A program made the position numbers and the translations under genes. DNA of 64,000 bases, from assembly GCF_007655485.1 (NCBI RefSeq), contig NZ_VJXQ01000003.1, positions 241,742 through 305,741 on the forward strand, written 5' to 3'. Shown here piece by piece: positions 1,643 through 22,420 of this stretch. Positions within the stretch are counted from its first letter, which is position 1; the number at the start of each line of letters is the position of its first letter. A model generated the notes under the pieces. The model made no database searches and was not told the DNA's origin. It saw only the letters and a program-made list of their open reading frames with translations. Source of the DNA: Halobellus captivus (lineage in GTDB: Archaea; Halobacteriota; Halobacteria; Halobacteriales; Haloferacaceae).

Positions 1643-3885
1643 GTAGGTGCCAGATCCCGTCGTCCGCCGAAGGTGATGACGAAGAGGACCCCCAGACCGA
1701 TGCCGTAGGCGACCATCAGCGGGATCGTCACGAGGAACATCGTAAGGACGTCAGCCGGGGTGAACAGCGCCGAGAACGCGAGGATGCCGACGGTCACTTC
1801 GCGCCAGCGGCCGCGCATCGTGCGGTAGCTGATCCCCGCGCTGTTGAGGAGGATCATCAGGATCGGCACGTCGGCGAGGAGGCCGATTCCCGCGGTCGTG
1901 AAGAAGATGAGCCAGAAGAAGTTCGTGATGCGGTAGGCGATCACCATGTTCGCCATCACGGCGTCGTTGACGAGCCACGAGATGATGCCCGGCGCGATCA
2001 TCGTGTAGCCGAGGACGAAGCCGCCGATCAGCCCCGCCGCCAGTGCCCCGGTCCACAGGAAGACCGCGCGGCGGCGCTGTCTGATGATGTTGCGCTCGCG
2101 GAGCGCAGGCCACGCGTAGTACGCGAGCACCGGGGCCGTGACGATGGCAGCGATGATCGTCGAGAACTTCACCTCGAAGACGAGCGCCTCCATCGGATGC
2201 AGGGCGACGACGTTGAGGACCTCCTCGGGGGTCACCTGCGCCGGGAGCCGACTGAGGAAGTCCTCGTAGACGCGCTTGATTCCGCCGGTGTAGAGCCAGC
2301 CGAACGTGCCCGCGAGCACGAGCATAAACAGTCCAACGATGCGGAACGCCCGCGACGTGATCGAGTCGAGGATGAACGCGATGTCGGTGTAGTAACCCTC
2401 GAAGTCGTCGGACGCGTCCGCTCCCTCGTCTTCGTCCCCGGCCGCTCCGTCACCGTCCGCATCATCGTCTGCATCCCCGTCGCGGAACTCGCCGAGGAAC
2501 GTGTCGCTGGCGCGCGAGAACCGATCGGCGATCGAGCCGCCGGACCCGGCGGCTTCCGTCGCACCCGCCGCCGCTGCCGACTCCGCGTCGGCGTCGGCAG
2601 CATCCCCGTCGGGGTCCGCGTCGTCGCTCGCTCCGTCTTCGTCGAACCGGTCGATGATCGCCTGCGCCTTCCCCCTGTCACCCGCGTCGATCGCGTCGCC
2701 CGCGGCGGCCATCGCCTCGTCTTCGCTGAGCGCGGCGAACACCTCGGGGGGTGCCGCGCGGACGCCCGCTGCGTCGAGGTCTGCGAGATCGATGGCGGCG
2801 GGGTCGCCGACGCCAGCCTCGACGATCGCGAGGTCGTCGAGATCCTGATAGACGTAGTAGCCGACGGCGACGGCCGCGGCCCCGACGCCCGCGAGGAGGA
2901 CGTAGCCGGCCAGGAGCGGCGTCGACGACGGTGCGTAGATCACGTAGTCGCTTCCGATCGCGGCGAGTCCACCGTTGAAGTAGTCGACGCCCCCGCGCTC
3001 GAAGAACGCGTAGACGAGCAATCCGCCGACGACGCCGACGCCAGCGATCGTGTTCCAGTGCGCCCGGGCGCTCCCGACGACGTCCATCCGCTCGCTCCCG
3101 CGACGGGCGGTCGTGACGACCTTCGCGAGGTAGAGGCTGACGCCGTAGAGCGCCAGGACGGGGATCGCCCACATAATCTGGGTGAACGGATCCGGCGGCG
3201 TGAACATCGCGCCGACGGCGAAGACGCCGACGACGGCGTGCCGCCACTTGTCCCGGAAGGTCTCGTAGGGGACGATCTCGGTGTAGGACAGTCCGGTCAT
3301 CACGAGCGGCAACTGGCTCGCGAGACCGAAGGAGGCGGTGAGTAAGAAGATGAACTGCGCCCACTTCACGATGGAATACGTCGGCGAAAAGCCCGCCGCG
3401 ATGGCGTTCTGTGCGAGGAACGCGAACGTGAACGGGAAGAACACGAAGTAGCCGTAGGCGACGCCGAGGACGAACAGCGTCACCATCCCGAGGAGGATGA
3501 TTACGAGCTGCCAGATCGGCACCGGCGAGGAGGGCCACAGCCCCCGTTCGACGAGCGCGTCGCGCGAGAAGTACAGGAAGGGGGGGACCGCGAGGACGAC
3601 GCCGACGACGAGACCGATCTTCGCCTGCAGGAGGATCACGTCGAACGGCGTCTGCGCGATGATCGAGACGTCCCCGCTCACCTGTGCCGACATCTGCGCT
3701 CTCGTGACCCGTTTGAGGAAGTCCCACACGTAGAGCCGGAGCGCGTAGAACGTCCCGAGAAAGCCGATCAGGAAGAAGATGAAAACCTTCTGGAGGTCCT
3801 TCTGCGCGGCTCGAAGCATCGCACCGGCGGTCTCTCGACCGGCGTCGAGTGTCGCTTTCGTGTCCTCGTCGAGCGCGCTGGACAT
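1624..3885 (-). CDS. tatCt: TatCt: double TatC twin-arginine translocase subunit
   Basis: A 753-residue fusion of two TatC domains, the haloarchaeal TatCt form. TatC recognises twin-arginine signal peptides and exports folded proteins; haloarchaea send most secreted proteins this way. Domain 1 spans about residues 30-280 and domain 2 about 520-740, each with the TatC pattern of several helices. They are joined by a long Asp/Ala/Gly-rich cytoplasmic-type linker (about residues 300-500). I chose the ATG at 3885 (MSSALDEDTK...), ten residues inside the longest frame, because the family begins this way. The divergent neighbour is the single-domain tatCo, so both translocase subunits share one intergenic region. 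Confidence 0.93.
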   Translation of the reverse strand: MSSALDEDTKATLDAGRETAGAMLRAAQKDLQKVFIFFLIGFLGTFYALRLYVWDFLKRVTRAQMSAQVSGDVSIIAQTPFDVILLQAKIGLVVGVVLAVPPFLYFSRDALVERGLWPSSPVPIWQLVIILLGMVTLFVLGVAYGYFVFFPFTFAFLAQNAIAAGFSPTYSIVKWAQFIFLLTASFGLASQLPLVMTGLSYTEIVPYETFRDKWRHAVVGVFAVGAMFTPPDPFTQIMWAIPVLALYGVSLYLAKVVTTARRGSERMDVVGSARAHWNTIAGVGVVGGLLVYAFFERGGVDYFNGGLAAIGSDYVIYAPSSTPLLAGYVLLAGVGAAAVAVGYYVYQDLDDLAIVEAGVGDPAAIDLADLDAAGVRAAPPEVFAALSEDEAMAAAGDAIDAGDRGKAQAIIDRFDEDGASDDADPDGDAADADAESAAAAGATEAAGSGGSIADRFSRASDTFLGEFRDGDADDDADGDGAAGDEDEGADASDDFEGYYTDIAFILDSITSRAFRIVGLFMLVLAGTFGWLYTGGIKRVYEDFLSRLPAQVTPEEVLNVVALHPMEALVFEVKFSTIIAAIVTAPVLAYYAWPALRERNIIRQRRRAVFLWTGALAAGLIGGFVLGYTMIAPGIISWLVNDAVMANMVIAYRITNFFWLIFFTTAGIGLLADVPILMILLNSAGISYRTMRGRWREVTVGILAFSALFTPADVLTMFLVTIPLMVAYGIGLGVLFVITFGGRRDLAPTRGTDI

Positions 3886-3964
3886 ATCCGAAGAGAACCG
3901 ACTCGCAGTTATCAATCTTTTCGACCGGCGGCGCGGGAGCAGCGTCGAGACGATGCGGAAAGGC

Positions 3965-3971
3965 CTATAAG
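3965..3971 (+). promoter_or_regulatory. TATA-like box of tatCo
   Basis: CTATAAG is centred about 28 nt before the ATG at 3996, which places the transcription start almost on the start codon (leaderless). Inferred from spacing only. Confidence 0.5.
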
Positions 3972-3995
3972 AACCGGGCGGCCAATCTCTGGTGA

Positions 3996-5969
3996 ATGGC
4001 CGAGGATTCGGAGGACGCCGACCGGACGCCCGATGCGGACGACGCGGAGGCGTCCGGTACTGGTGAGTCCGTTGCCGACTCGGAGACCGACGCCTCTCCG
4101 GACAGCGCCGAGTCCGACGCGGACGACGCTCGCGCGTCGGATCCGGATTCGAGTAGCTCCGAAGCCGACGGCAATGCGGAATCCGACGGCAGTGAGAACG
4201 CGGAGGCGGCGGACGCGTCCGCGACTGGCGACGAAGGGGTTATCGAGGAAGGGACGGTCGGCGAGGAGGCGGCGACTGACACCGACGAGGGCGACACGAA
4301 AGCGGCGTCATCCAACGAGCCCGAAGAAGACGCGGACAACGGGAAAGACGACGACACGGACAACGGGAAAGACGACGGCGCGAGCGACGAACCGTCAGAC
4401 TCGGGCGAGGAGGTCGACTCTGCGGACACGGAGTCGGACGCTGATACCGACGCTTCCGGTTCGGAGACTGCGGACGAAGACTCGGAGCCGAACGAAGAGC
4501 CCGATACTGACTCGGACGCAGAATCGGAGCCAGATTCGGAGACCGACGTTCAGAAGTCCGAAGAGGAAGGGGAAGACGCAGACGAAGAGGAAAAGGAAGA
4601 GAAAGACGCAGCGACCACCGGAACCGACGGCGGCGCACCGGCGACCGCTGGCGACGTCCTCCCCGGCGATACGGACGATATGCTGCCCGAGGAGGACTCG
4701 ACCGTCGACGACGGCTTGCTTTCGGGTGGGCCCGAGAGTGACGAGGAGATGCCGCTGGCGGACCACATCGAGGAGATGGTCCGCCGGCTCACCGTCGTGC
4801 TCGGCATCGGTGGGCTCATTACGCTCCTTTTGTACCCCGGTGCCGACCTCGTCAACTCGGCGTTCGGTCTCAACCTCATCAGTTCGACGGAGGTAATCGA
4901 CTTTCTCTGGAACAAGCACATCCCCGGCGCGCCCGAGATGGTCGACCGGCGCCCGCGGATTTACGGTCCGCTCGAACTGCTGTTGACCGAGTTGAAAGTC
5001 GCCGCGCTCGGCGGGCTCGTGGTCGGACTCCCGGCATTCGTCTACGAGACGTACCTGTTCATGCGACCGGGGCTGTACTCGAAGGAGCGTCGATATTACC
5101 TCGCGGCGGTGCCGACGAGCCTCGTGCTCGCGTTCGTCGGAATCTCCTTCGCGCACTTCATCGTCCTCCCGGCGATCTTCGCGTACTTCACCTCCTACAC
5201 GACGGGGACGGCGATCGTGGCGTTCGGCCTCAAGGAGACGTTCAACCTCATCCTGATTCTGATGGGCTACAACGCCATCATCTTCCAGATCCCGCTGTTC
5301 GTGATGTTGGCGATTATGATGAACCTCGTCACGCGGCGGTGGCTCGAAGACCGCCGCCTGCTCTTCTGGGGTACCTTCCTGGGGCTCGCGTTCCTCGTCA
5401 GTCCCGACCCGACCGGGATGGCTCCGATCATCATCGGTGCGACGATGATCGCGCTGTTCGAGGGGACGCTGTTCGTGCTGCGGTGGGCCGGGAGGGGGTC
5501 GCTGGCCCCCACCGCCGAGGGACTGGCGGCCCGCCGTCCGCTGGCTGCCGTGCTCGCGGCGCTCGTCGGCTACCTCCTCAGCCCCCTGCCGGTCCCGACG
5601 GGCTATTACCACCTTCTTCCCTCGGTGGTCGTCGAGACGCTCGCGGCCAACGGTCTCGCGGTGTACACACCGTTGATCATCGCGGGCGCCCTCGTAGGCA
5701 CGTTCGAACTCGTGTCGCTGCTCCTGCGCCGCTACGGTCGCTCGCGGCGGATACTGCGGGTCAGTCTCGCCACTGACACCGCCCGCCGCTCGGTCTGGCT
5801 GGTCGCCGTCGTCGTGGGTTATCTCGGCAGCCCCGATCCGGCCGTCCTCCGGTGGGCCACTGAGCTGAATCTGCACCCGGCGCTGGCTGGCGGAATCGCG
5901 GTCGGACTGGTGCTCGGCTACGAGGCGATTCGCCTCCTACTCGCGTCCCGCGAAAATCGTGCGGGCTGA
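3996..5969 (+). CDS. tatCo: TatCo: single TatC with a long acidic N-terminal extension
   Basis: A 657-residue protein. Residues from about 252 (MPLADHIEEMVRRLTVVLGI...) to the end form a TatC-type multi-helix membrane domain with the usual large periplasmic loop and an additional C-terminal set of helices. Residues 1-250 are an extremely acidic Asp/Glu/Ser-rich low-complexity region with an internal repeat of DNGKDDDTDNGKDD type. The frame is open throughout, base composition is typical, and a TATA-like box sits correctly for the ATG at 3996, so the extension is probably translated, although an internal start near 4749 cannot be excluded. Divergent from tatCt. The extension is far longer than the TatC fold needs and has no recognisable domain. 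Confidence 0.9.
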   Translation: MAEDSEDADRTPDADDAEASGTGESVADSETDASPDSAESDADDARASDPDSSSSEADGNAESDGSENAEAADASATGDEGVIEEGTVGEEAATDTDEGDTKAASSNEPEEDADNGKDDDTDNGKDDGASDEPSDSGEEVDSADTESDADTDASGSETADEDSEPNEEPDTDSDAESEPDSETDVQKSEEEGEDADEEEKEEKDAATTGTDGGAPATAGDVLPGDTDDMLPEEDSTVDDGLLSGGPESDEEMPLADHIEEMVRRLTVVLGIGGLITLLLYPGADLVNSAFGLNLISSTEVIDFLWNKHIPGAPEMVDRRPRIYGPLELLLTELKVAALGGLVVGLPAFVYETYLFMRPGLYSKERRYYLAAVPTSLVLAFVGISFAHFIVLPAIFAYFTSYTTGTAIVAFGLKETFNLILILMGYNAIIFQIPLFVMLAIMMNLVTRRWLEDRRLLFWGTFLGLAFLVSPDPTGMAPIIIGATMIALFEGTLFVLRWAGRGSLAPTAEGLAARRPLAAVLAALVGYLLSPLPVPTGYYHLLPSVVVETLAANGLAVYTPLIIAGALVGTFELVSLLLRRYGRSRRILRVSLATDTARRSVWLVAVVVGYLGSPDPAVLRWATELNLHPALAGGIAVGLVLGYEAIRLLLASRENRAG

Positions 5970-19146: not shown

Positions 19147-20520
19147 ATGAACGCCATCTCTTTCGGGACCGACGGCTGGCGAGCCACGCTCGACACGTTC
19201 ACCGACGATCGGGTGCGGATCGTCGGCCAGGGCGTCGCGAACTACCTCATCGAAGCGGGCTACGACGACCCCGTCTTCGTCGGCTACGACGCCCGCGAGA
19301 CCTCGAAGGGGTTCGCCGACTCCCTCGCCGAGGTGCTCGCGGGCAACGGCTTCGACGTCCTCCTCCCCGAGCGCGACTGCCCGACGCCGCTCGTCGCCTA
19401 CGCCATCGTCGACCGCGGGCTCTCCGGCGCGCTGATGATCACGGCCTCGCACAACCCGCCGGAGTACAACGGCGTGAAGTTCATCCCCTCCGACGGCGCG
19501 CCCGCCCTCCCGGAGGTGACCGACGCGGTCGCGGCGTCCCTCGCGAAACCCGATCTCGCGCCCGAGTCCGAGCGCGGGACGATCGAAACGATCGACATCG
19601 TCACGCCACACGCCGAGCGAGCCCGCGAGTTGGTCGCGGCGGACCTCTCGGGGCTCACCGTCGTCCACGACGCGATGCACGGCTCCGGCCGCGGCGTCAC
19701 CGACGAACTGCTCAGATCCGCTGGCGCGGAGGTCGTCGGCATCCGCGACGAGCGTGATCCCGACTTCGGCGGGACGCCGCCGGAGCCCAGCGCCGAGAAC
19801 CTCGAACCGCTCGTCGAGGCGGTCGAGGCCCACGACGCCGACCTCGGGGTCGCAAACGACGGCGACGCCGACCGGGTCGCGTTCGTGACGCCCGAGCGCG
19901 GTCACTTGGACGAGAACCTCTTTTACGCCGCCGTCTACGACTACCTGCTCGAATCCGACCGCGGATCCGCGATTCGAACGGTCTCGACGACGTTCCTGAT
20001 CGACCGGATCGCCGAGGCGCACGACGAAGACGTGTTCGAGACCGCGGTCGGGTTCAAGTGGGTCGCACAGGCGATGGCCGAGCACGACGCGCTGATCGGC
20101 GGCGAGGAGTCGGGCGGGTTCTCGATCCGCGGACACGTCCGCGAGAAAGACGGCGTCCTGATGGGACTGCTCGGTGCCGCCGCGGCGGCCGAGGAACCGA
20201 TGGACGACCGCGTCGACCGCCTGCTCGACACGTACGGCGATATCGTATCGGACAAAATCAGCCTCGATTGCCCCGATTCGGAGAAGCAACGCGTCATCGA
20301 CGAACTCGACGACGCCCTCCCCGAGCGCGTCGCCGACCGCGACATCGCCGAGGTGGTGACGCTTGACGGCTTCAAACTCCTCTTAGAAGACGGCTCGTGG
20401 CTCCTCGTCCGACCCTCCGGGACCGAGCCCAAAATGCGGGTCTACACCGAGGCGGCGAGCCGAGAGCGCGCGGACGCGCTGCTGGCGGCGGGAAAGGAGT
20501 TGGTGGAGCCGCTCATCTGA
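19147..20520 (+). CDS. Phosphohexomutase (GlmM/ManB family)
   Basis: A 457-residue alpha-D-phosphohexomutase with all four signature loops: catalytic serine TASHNPP at residues 99-105 (S101), metal loop NDGDADR at 237-243, sugar loop GEESGG at 319-324, and the C-terminal phosphate loop RPSGTEP near 425. The archaeal family interconverts glucosamine, glucose or mannose 1- and 6-phosphates, feeding cell-surface glycan synthesis. The specific sugar is not decidable from motifs. ATG at 19147 begins MNAISFGTDGWRATLD, exactly the family N terminus. Its last 8 bp overlap the 3' end of the convergent GNAT gene. Confidence 0.93.
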   Translation: MNAISFGTDGWRATLDTFTDDRVRIVGQGVANYLIEAGYDDPVFVGYDARETSKGFADSLAEVLAGNGFDVLLPERDCPTPLVAYAIVDRGLSGALMITASHNPPEYNGVKFIPSDGAPALPEVTDAVAASLAKPDLAPESERGTIETIDIVTPHAERARELVAADLSGLTVVHDAMHGSGRGVTDELLRSAGAEVVGIRDERDPDFGGTPPEPSAENLEPLVEAVEAHDADLGVANDGDADRVAFVTPERGHLDENLFYAAVYDYLLESDRGSAIRTVSTTFLIDRIAEAHDEDVFETAVGFKWVAQAMAEHDALIGGEESGGFSIRGHVREKDGVLMGLLGAAAAAEEPMDDRVDRLLDTYGDIVSDKISLDCPDSEKQRVIDELDDALPERVADRDIAEVVTLDGFKLLLEDGSWLLVRPSGTEPKMRVYTEAASRERADALLAAGKELVEPLI

Positions 20521-21088
20521 GGATCCCGCACAGCCGGTCGTCCGCGGGGTCGTCTGGGTCGTCTGCGGGTTCATTCGGACCGTCAGCGTTGGTTTCATCC
20601 CGACCGTCTGGGTCGGTTTCGTCCGGGTCGTCAGCCTCGGCTTCGTTTCGCCTGCCAGCGCCGGCTTCGCCGCAGTTACCCCTGCGAATCTCGAACCCCA
20701 ACGCCGCGTAGAAGGGCCGAACCTGCTCGCGGAAGCGCGCGACCAGCGGTCTCGCCGCGCGCGTCGCCGCCGTCTCGACCAGCGCGCGCCCGATCCCGCG
20801 CCCGCGACGCGACCGGCGAACGGCGATCGACTCGATTTCGATCGGATTGACGTCGCCGCCGTCGTCGATGCCCTCGCCCTCGATGTGCTCGGCGATGCTT
20901 AGCACGCAGGCACCAATCACGTTCTCACCGTCGTCGACGGCGACGAGCACGTCGGCTTCGATCACACAGTCGCCATCGCAGACGCGTCGGCGCACCCGCT
21001 CGCGGTCGAATTCGAGCATCGCGGCATCGAGCAGATAAACGATCTCGTCCGCATCGTCGGCCGTTGCCTCGCGGATCTCGTGTGTCAC
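20513..21088 (-). CDS. GNAT N-acetyltransferase with repetitive acidic tail
   Basis: A 191-residue protein starting with GTG. Residues 1-145 are a GNAT fold, with the acetyl-CoA loop RRSRRGRGIGRALVE around residues 92-106 (the R-x-x-G-x-G/A motif) and the closing FYAALGFEI segment. Residues about 150-191 are an Asp/Pro/Asn low-complexity tail (DDPDETDPDGRDE..., ADDPDDPADD) encoded by degenerate tandem repeats, unlike the normal compact end of the family. The substrate is unknown. The tail overlaps the convergent phosphohexomutase gene by 8 bp. It is one of two GNAT genes here with a repeat-derived C terminus (the other is at 55906). Confidence 0.82.
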   Translation of the reverse strand: MTHEIREATADDADEIVYLLDAAMLEFDRERVRRRVCDGDCVIEADVLVAVDDGENVIGACVLSIAEHIEGEGIDDGGDVNPIEIESIAVRRSRRGRGIGRALVETAATRAARPLVARFREQVRPFYAALGFEIRRGNCGEAGAGRRNEAEADDPDETDPDGRDETNADGPNEPADDPDDPADDRLCGILR

Positions 21089-21109: not shown

Positions 21110-21322
21110 TCACCGCGGCGACGAGCCGCCCTTGATGAGTCGAAGCACCCGAACGCGGTCGACTTCGACGGGTTGGTCCTCCGGAACGGGGCTGCCGTCG
21201 ATCATCACCGAGATCTCGTGCGGGGAGTACCCGACGGCGCGAACGACGTCGGCGTACGTGTCGTCGTCACCGACTTCCACGGTCTCCTCTCCCTCGCCGA
21301 CGACATCGACGGTCACGCGCAT
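21110..21322 (-). CDS. samp2: SAMP2-like ubiquitin-like modifier with C-terminal extension
   Basis: A 70-residue beta-grasp protein: MRVTVDVVGEGEETVEV..., then YSPHEISVMIDGSPVPEDQPVE and VDRVRVLRLIKGG. This matches haloarchaeal SAMP2, which is conjugated to lysines through its C-terminal Gly-Gly after activation by the E1-like UbaA and also acts in tRNA thiolation. Here Gly65-Gly66 is not terminal: codons for Ser-Ser-Pro-Arg follow before TGA at 21110-21112. Haloferax SAMP2, as I recall, ends at Gly-Gly. A precursor needing cleavage, as for ubiquitin, is the simplest reading. I chose ATG 21322; the frame extends upstream but not as protein-like sequence. It is divergent from the RFC gene, an arrangement also found in Haloferax. 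Confidence 0.85.
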   Translation of the reverse strand: MRVTVDVVGEGEETVEVGDDDTYADVVRAVGYSPHEISVMIDGSPVPEDQPVEVDRVRVLRLIKGGSSPR

Positions 21323-21439
21323 ATCCCCCGCTTCGACCGCGCCGGGCTTTCCGGTTTCGCTTCCGGCGGGGCGGACGTCGACCGCGAACCGTAGCCGAAA
21401 CGCGGGTGGTTTATGAGCCACGGGCTCCCTGTCTCGCGT

Positions 21440-22420
21440 ATGAGTGAGGCCGACGCCTCGGAGGGGGCCCCGGCGGGACGCGAGATCTGGATCGAGAAGT
21501 ACCGACCCGAAACCTTCGACGACATTTACGGACAGGAAGAGATCGTCGAGCGCCTTCGATCGTATGTCGAGCGCGACGACCTGCCGCACTTGCTCTTTGC
21601 GGGTCCGGCCGGAACCGGCAAAACCACCTCAGCCACCGCCATCGCCCGCGCGATCTACGGCGACGACTGGAAGAACAACTTCCTCGAACTGAACGCCTCC
21701 GACGAGCGCGGAATCGACGTCGTCAGGGATCGGATCAAGAACTTCGCGCGCTCGTCGTTCGGCGGCTACGACCACCGAGTCATCTTCCTCGACGAGGCTG
21801 ACTCGCTCACGGATGACGCCCAGTCGGCGCTGCGGCGGACGATGGAACAGTTCTCCGACAACACGCGCTTCATCCTCTCGTGTAACTACTCCTCGAAGAT
21901 CATCGACCCGATCCAGTCGCGATGCGCCGTCTTCCGGTTCTCGCCGCTCTCCGACGATGCGATCCGCCAGCAGGTCGAAGACATCGCTGCGGCGGAGGAT
22001 ATCGAGATCACCGAAGACGGCCTCGACGCGCTCGTTTACGCCGCGGGCGGCGATATGCGCCGCGCGATCAACTCGCTGCAGGCGGCGGCGACGACCGGGG
22101 ACGTCGTCGACGAGGAGGCCGTCTATCTGATCACCTCGACCGCTCGCCCCGAGCAGATCGAGGAGATGGTACGGGCGGCGATCGACGGCGACTTCGCGTC
22201 GGCGCGGTCCCAACTCGAAACGCTGCTCGTCGACACCGGGATGGCGGGCGGCGACATCATCGACCAACTGCACCGCTCGGCGTGGGACTTCGACCTCGAC
22301 GAGCGCACGACGATCCGACTGATGGAGCGCATCGGCGAGGCGGATTATCGGATTACGGCGGGGGCGAACGAGCGGGTCCAGTTGGAGGCGCTGTTGGCCT
22401 CCCTCGCGGCCGAGGAATAG
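21440..22420 (+). CDS. rfcS: Replication factor C small subunit
   Basis: A 326-residue AAA+ clamp-loader subunit that opens the PCNA ring at primer ends. N-terminal [17 protein letters not shown] (residues 18-34) is the RFC box; Walker [10 protein letters not shown] is at 55-63, Walker B FLDEAD at 116-121, sensor 1 LSCNYSSKI near 147-155, and the arginine-finger SRC motif at 160-162. Length is normal and no intein is present, although RFC small subunits of other archaea carry them. ATG at 21440 is chosen because the RFC box follows after 17 residues. Downstream alaS starts 57 bp later. Confidence 0.96.

Follow-up and report, generated by a model that had tools for sequence, protein, structure and literature searches.

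Residues beyond the diglycine of haloarchaeal SAMP2 point to a modifier that is probably made as a precursor for JAMM1

The ubiquitin-like small archaeal modifier protein 2 (SAMP2) of Halobellus captivus is probably made as a precursor. Four encoded residues follow its Gly-Gly, tails of this kind recur among haloarchaeal SAMP2 genes, and their occurrence is restricted to genomes that carry a gene for the desampylase JAMM1. Judging from these gene comparisons, we consider it very likely that SAMP2 would be cut by JAMM1 after Gly66 and would then become activatable by UbaA, the tails being tolerated and recurrent in JAMM1-positive lineages. The window, i.e. the whole stretch of 64,000 nucleotides that was analyzed, carries the following features:

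21110..21322, minus strand: samp2, encoding the ubiquitin-like SAMP2 with a C-terminal tail, 70 amino acids (translation and family matches)
21125..21130, minus strand: Gly65-Gly66 codons GGC GGC, with the predicted cleavage after Gly66 (nucleotide sequence)
21113..21124, minus strand: tail codons TCG TCG CCG CGG, i.e. Ser-Ser-Pro-Arg (nucleotide sequence and translation)
21110..21112, minus strand: samp2 stop codon TGA (nucleotide sequence and translation)
20513..21088, minus strand: GNAT acetyltransferase gene downstream of samp2, with a GTG start 21 bases past the samp2 stop and GGAGG before it
21413..22420, plus strand: divergent gene of the replication factor C small subunit, context only (family match)

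The minus-strand translation of 21110-21322 reads MRVTVDVVGEGEETVEVGDDDTYADVVRAVGYSPHEISVMIDGSPVPEDQPVEVDRVRVLRLIKGGSSPR and ends in VLRLIKGG-SSPR followed by the stop, bearing out the observation of the sequence-only reading that four codons follow the Gly-Gly. The protein matched the Pfam SAMP2 family PF21965 (E 2.7e-29, 101.8 bits, cut-off 27) and the NCBIfam SAMP2 equivalog NF041919 (108.3 bits, cut-off 70), whose whole model is covered by positions 1-66, so that the model end coincides exactly with Gly66. The SAMP2 of Haloferax volcanii is tailless and ends exactly at its Gly-Gly. This protein (HVO_0202; 2L32, 4HRS) has the same family, fold and LIKGG core end as Halobellus SAMP2, which matched the solved SAMP2 structures 2l32 and 4hrs by sequence. 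A single-sequence AlphaFold2 model showed a beta-grasp arrangement of four strands and one helix at a mean pLDDT of 83.6, with residues 65-70 (GGSSPR) at pLDDT below 50; the modelled tail therefore looks flexible and accessible. As encoded, the Gly-Gly is not terminal but is followed by SSPR, and we did not use this feature to exclude SAMP2 membership because it varies within the family. The genome holds one copy of SAMP2, ruling out that a second copy does the work here.

Comparison with sister Halobellus genomes excluded that the tail results from a sequencing error or a frameshift, given that sister species carry it too. Following KGG, three of five sister genomes encode SSPR, one SSRR and one SSR; the possibility that the frame really ends at Gly-Gly, which the sequence-only reading had named as fatal to its proposal, thus falls away. 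Among the six Halobellus genes, nucleotide identity was 90% over the tail (4-residue tails) and 89% over the final 60 core bases, and only 28% over the first 12 bases past the stop. On these alignments the tail belongs to the coding sequence. Further Halobellus SAMP2 proteins continue after Gly-Gly with TR, AE, SSGATLGPPS or SSGVDPDSPP, or carry nothing at all.

The survey of C termini drew on 80 named contigs and on whole genomes of the order, which together gave 286 distinct haloarchaeal SAMP2 genes; any residues past the Gly-Gly close to where the aligned core ends were scored as a tail. A Gly-Gly was found in every gene collected, including L340, which escaped automatic parsing and has GG as its last residues. 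The stop follows directly after GG in 185 genes, after a short tail of 2-25 residues in 77, and after a fused stretch of 125-220 residues in 24. Residues past the diglycine are thus present in 101 of the 286 genes, and the comparison of haloarchaeal C termini that the sequence-only reading had proposed shows that tails extend beyond this strain. Two kinds of fusion occur: SAMP2 joined to an AhpC/TSA redoxin (Halorussus, Halopenitus and others) and SAMP2 joined to a GNAT acetyltransferase (genus g13 and one member of g2). All 101 genes with a tail or fusion retain GG, encoded by 12 synonymous codon pairs, while the tails themselves are mostly dissimilar between genera, as expected if GG is the functional end that cleavage would expose.

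Tail states are mixed within single genera (tails in 3 of 14 members of g6, 3 of 5 of g4 and 10 of 12 of Halobellus), where tails were gained, lost, shortened and extended. Among the 77 short tails, a length of two was the commonest (27 genes in at least 11 genera) and a length of one was absent, a pattern not predicted by free drift. Loss of the stop with readthrough to a nearby backup stop was ruled out as the origin of the two-residue tails, given that just 1 of 105 tailless SAMP2 genes has an in-frame stop within five codons past its own. A mode of exactly two with none of one, which downstream in-frame stops do not predict, suggests that tail length is not random and speaks for the view that the tail is a selected control step, SAMP2 being inactive until regulated processing. 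The sequence-only reading had likewise expected the tail to add a control step. Against this, tails appear and vanish within genera, their sequences are mostly unconserved between genera, and MoaD-type (SAMP3-like) proteins do have one-residue tails, which also rules out a two-residue minimum as a general rule of JAMM1. We therefore regard a selected control step as unlikely; coming and going as they do, the tails look like a tolerated feature, which constitutive JAMM1 activity would account for.

Removal of the tails by a JAMM protease predicts that genomes lacking the enzyme are tailless. A search for the desampylase family of the HvJAMM1 type (NF041370) covered 138 genomes from the family and 391 from the order, 104 of the latter lacking it. 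Tailed or fused SAMP2 was present in 84 of 171 JAMM1-positive genomes and in none of 79 JAMM1-negative genomes (Fisher 1.9e-18), one of the positives (G008) having been scored by the broader Prok-JAB model and not by NF041370. The active-site motif was present in 43 of 44 fetched JAMM loci. Two genomes of one genus (G014 and G016), 98-99% complete, gave no SAMP2 match; in G014 the best JAMM1 match scores too low for the desampylase cut-off, and in G016 a second JAMM1-like match is interrupted by stops. At the genus level, tails occurred in 21 of 59 JAMM1-positive and 0 of 25 JAMM1-negative genera (P 2.1e-4). The same direction was seen within families, with tails in 72 of 113 JAMM1-positive versus 0 of 10 JAMM1-negative in f1, 7 of 26 versus 0 of 10 in f5 and 2 of 7 versus 0 of 4 in f9. 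Family f2 is tailless with or without JAMM1, as would be seen if the association were an artefact of common descent; genomes of relatives do not count independently, and shuffling the JAMM1 labels among genera within families leaves a P of only 0.006. That value nonetheless argues against ancestry as the sole source of the association, as does the spread of JAMM1-negative genera over f1, f2, f3, f4, f5, f7 and f9, none of them tailed, and we judge such an artefact quite improbable.

A second modifier family showed the same pattern, which also weighs against shared ancestry. Halobellus captivus encodes, outside the window, a MoaD-type protein ending in PPVAGG-SLGETL (C15:346160-346417, L264) that we call SAMP3-like from a presumed similarity to HVO_2177 and that NCBIfam classes as SAMP1-type. 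Other ubiquitin-like proteins of this genome end exactly at GG. MoaD-type SAMPs were tailed in 21 of 31 JAMM1-positive and in 0 of 30 fetched JAMM1-negative cases, the JAMM1-negative matches being mostly of another subtype, PPVSGG; restricted to the PPVAGG subtype, the counts were 21 of 31 versus 0 of 8 (P=7e-4). All 49 MoaD-type matches in 42 JAMM1-negative genomes have their stop within the aligned end.

The machinery for maturation is encoded in the Halobellus captivus genome. JAMM1 (NF041370, 148 bits, cut-off 130) lies at C1:442324-442716 with an intact active site, consisting of the HxHx7SxxD motif HTHPTGPPRPSETD and an upstream Glu, and the gene of the E1 enzyme UbaA is present (equivalog, 532 bits, cut-off 450). 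Because SAMP2 as encoded does not end in Gly-Gly, a protease would have to mature it, as the sequence-only reading had argued from the same end. We propose that SAMP2 would be translated as a precursor ending in KGG-SSPR, that the zinc metalloprotease JAMM1 would cut the peptide bond after the second glycine to release mature SAMP2-GG, and that UbaA would then adenylate SAMP2-GG for protein sampylation and tRNA thiolation. Given a constitutively acting JAMM1, the position of the stop codon past GG would be free to drift, and JAMM1-positive lineages would therefore have repeatedly acquired 2-25-residue tails as well as entire downstream domains (GNAT, redoxin). Another enzyme, such as a JAMM2-type protein or a carboxypeptidase, might instead trim the tail with JAMM1 merely co-occurring; the genome does encode a second stand-alone JAMM protein (C1:612619), and Prok-JAB matches turned up in each of the 14 genus members searched, but the taillessness of all 79 JAMM1-negative genomes makes this very improbable. 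The possibility that the tail is retained and that SAMP2 of tailed species acts as a non-covalent protein that no longer conjugates or carries sulfur, which the sequence-only reading had offered as its alternative, fits the blocked encoded C terminus and the presence of other ubiquitin-like proteins ending at GG that could serve UbaA, but is extremely improbable given the GG kept in every tailed or fused gene despite synonymous codon variation, the tracking of tails with JAMM1 and the single SAMP2 copy. As a separate observation, the genome carries a CBASS-like pair at C21 ~2235-5890 (L259:235-3890) that encodes a 789-residue E1-E2-JAB protein and a 429-residue TIR-SAVED effector.

Maturation by JAMM1 has parallels in known systems. 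Eukaryotic ubiquitin, SUMO and NEDD8 are likewise precursors or fusions trimmed to Gly-Gly, but by cysteine proteases, whereas a JAMM metalloprotease would act in Halobellus. That JAMM proteases cleave SAMP fusions and precursors is already known in principle from publications on H. volcanii and Caldiarchaeum. HvJAMM1, of the same protease family, cuts the peptide bond of linear SAMP1-MoaE exactly after the SAMP GG in Haloferax volcanii, and in vivo complementation by the SAMP1-MoaE fusion requires jamm1 (PMC4443979); that substrate is an artificial SAMP1 fusion, whereas the haloarchaeal cases here are natural tails and fusions of SAMP2 and SAMP3-like proteins. Caldiarchaeum subterraneum also has an archaeal ubiquitin-like protein with residues past Gly-Gly that is JAMM-matured: its pro-ubiquitin is refractory to E1 until the JAMM protease Rpn11 takes off 9 residues (PMC5654768), and CsJAMM cleaves Caldiarchaeum SAMP precursors (PMC6043591). 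That work concerns another lineage and another ubiquitin-like protein and shows cleavage in vitro, whereas in Halobellus cleavage is predicted; how tails come and go together with the protease gene was surveyed in haloarchaea and not in the passages considered of the Caldiarchaeum work (PMC6043591, PMC5654768). The restriction of tails to JAMM1-positive genomes, together with precedents from H. volcanii (PMC4443979) and Caldiarchaeum (PMC6043591), argues for the candidate that the sequence-only reading had put forward, a JAMM-type protease.

Beyond SAMP2 itself, we lean toward the view that haloarchaeal SAMPs are widely made as pro-proteins and polyproteins (SAMP2-GNAT, SAMP2-redoxin, and SAMP3-like with a second Gly-Gly protein) resembling eukaryotic ubiquitin fusions in their organization, for which release by JAMM1 would be obligatory and loss of JAMM1 would lock the stop behind Gly-Gly. 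A second general role of the archaeal desampylase is thereby suggested, namely the maturing of modifier precursors besides the removal of modifiers, with the sharp prediction that tailed SAMPs should depend on jamm1. The tailed proteins supply natural desampylase substrates for tests in genetically tractable haloarchaea, and such fusion genes of the ubiquitin kind, in a simple system that lacks classical E2 and E3, bear on the origin of ubiquitin precursors. In the searchable literature, which leaves most subscription papers outside, we came across neither haloarchaeal SAMP2 tails nor GNAT and redoxin fusions of SAMP2; the spread of haloarchaeal SAMP tails, the confinement of these tails to JAMM1-positive genomes, and polyproteins of the SAMP2-GNAT, SAMP2-redoxin and SAMP3-like types are likewise unreported there, which is weak evidence of novelty.

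Further observations concern the fusion partners. In genus g13 SAMP2 and a GNAT acetyltransferase share one reading frame, whereas the GNAT gene of Halobellus captivus is separate and adjoins samp2; an association of samp2 with GNAT in Halobacteria, and one of ubiquitin-like protein and peroxiredoxin genes in Thermococcales, have been described (PMC2948915). SAMP2 is joined to the AhpC/TSA redoxin domain at L039, L040, L044, L046, L047, L049, L052, L057, L065, L177, L186 and L199. At four loci of JAMM1-positive genomes (L430, L431, L437 and L448) the SAMP3-like protein continues in frame into a downstream protein that ends in KAMRAGG-stop, forming a polyprotein with two Gly-Gly motifs, and in Halobellus captivus (L264:1214-1923) the SAMP3-like and KAMRAGG-type proteins are encoded by separate adjacent genes. 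The partner with the KAMRAGG end resembles, and may correspond to, a TBP-like Gly-Gly protein encoded beside a MoaD-like gene (PMC2948915).
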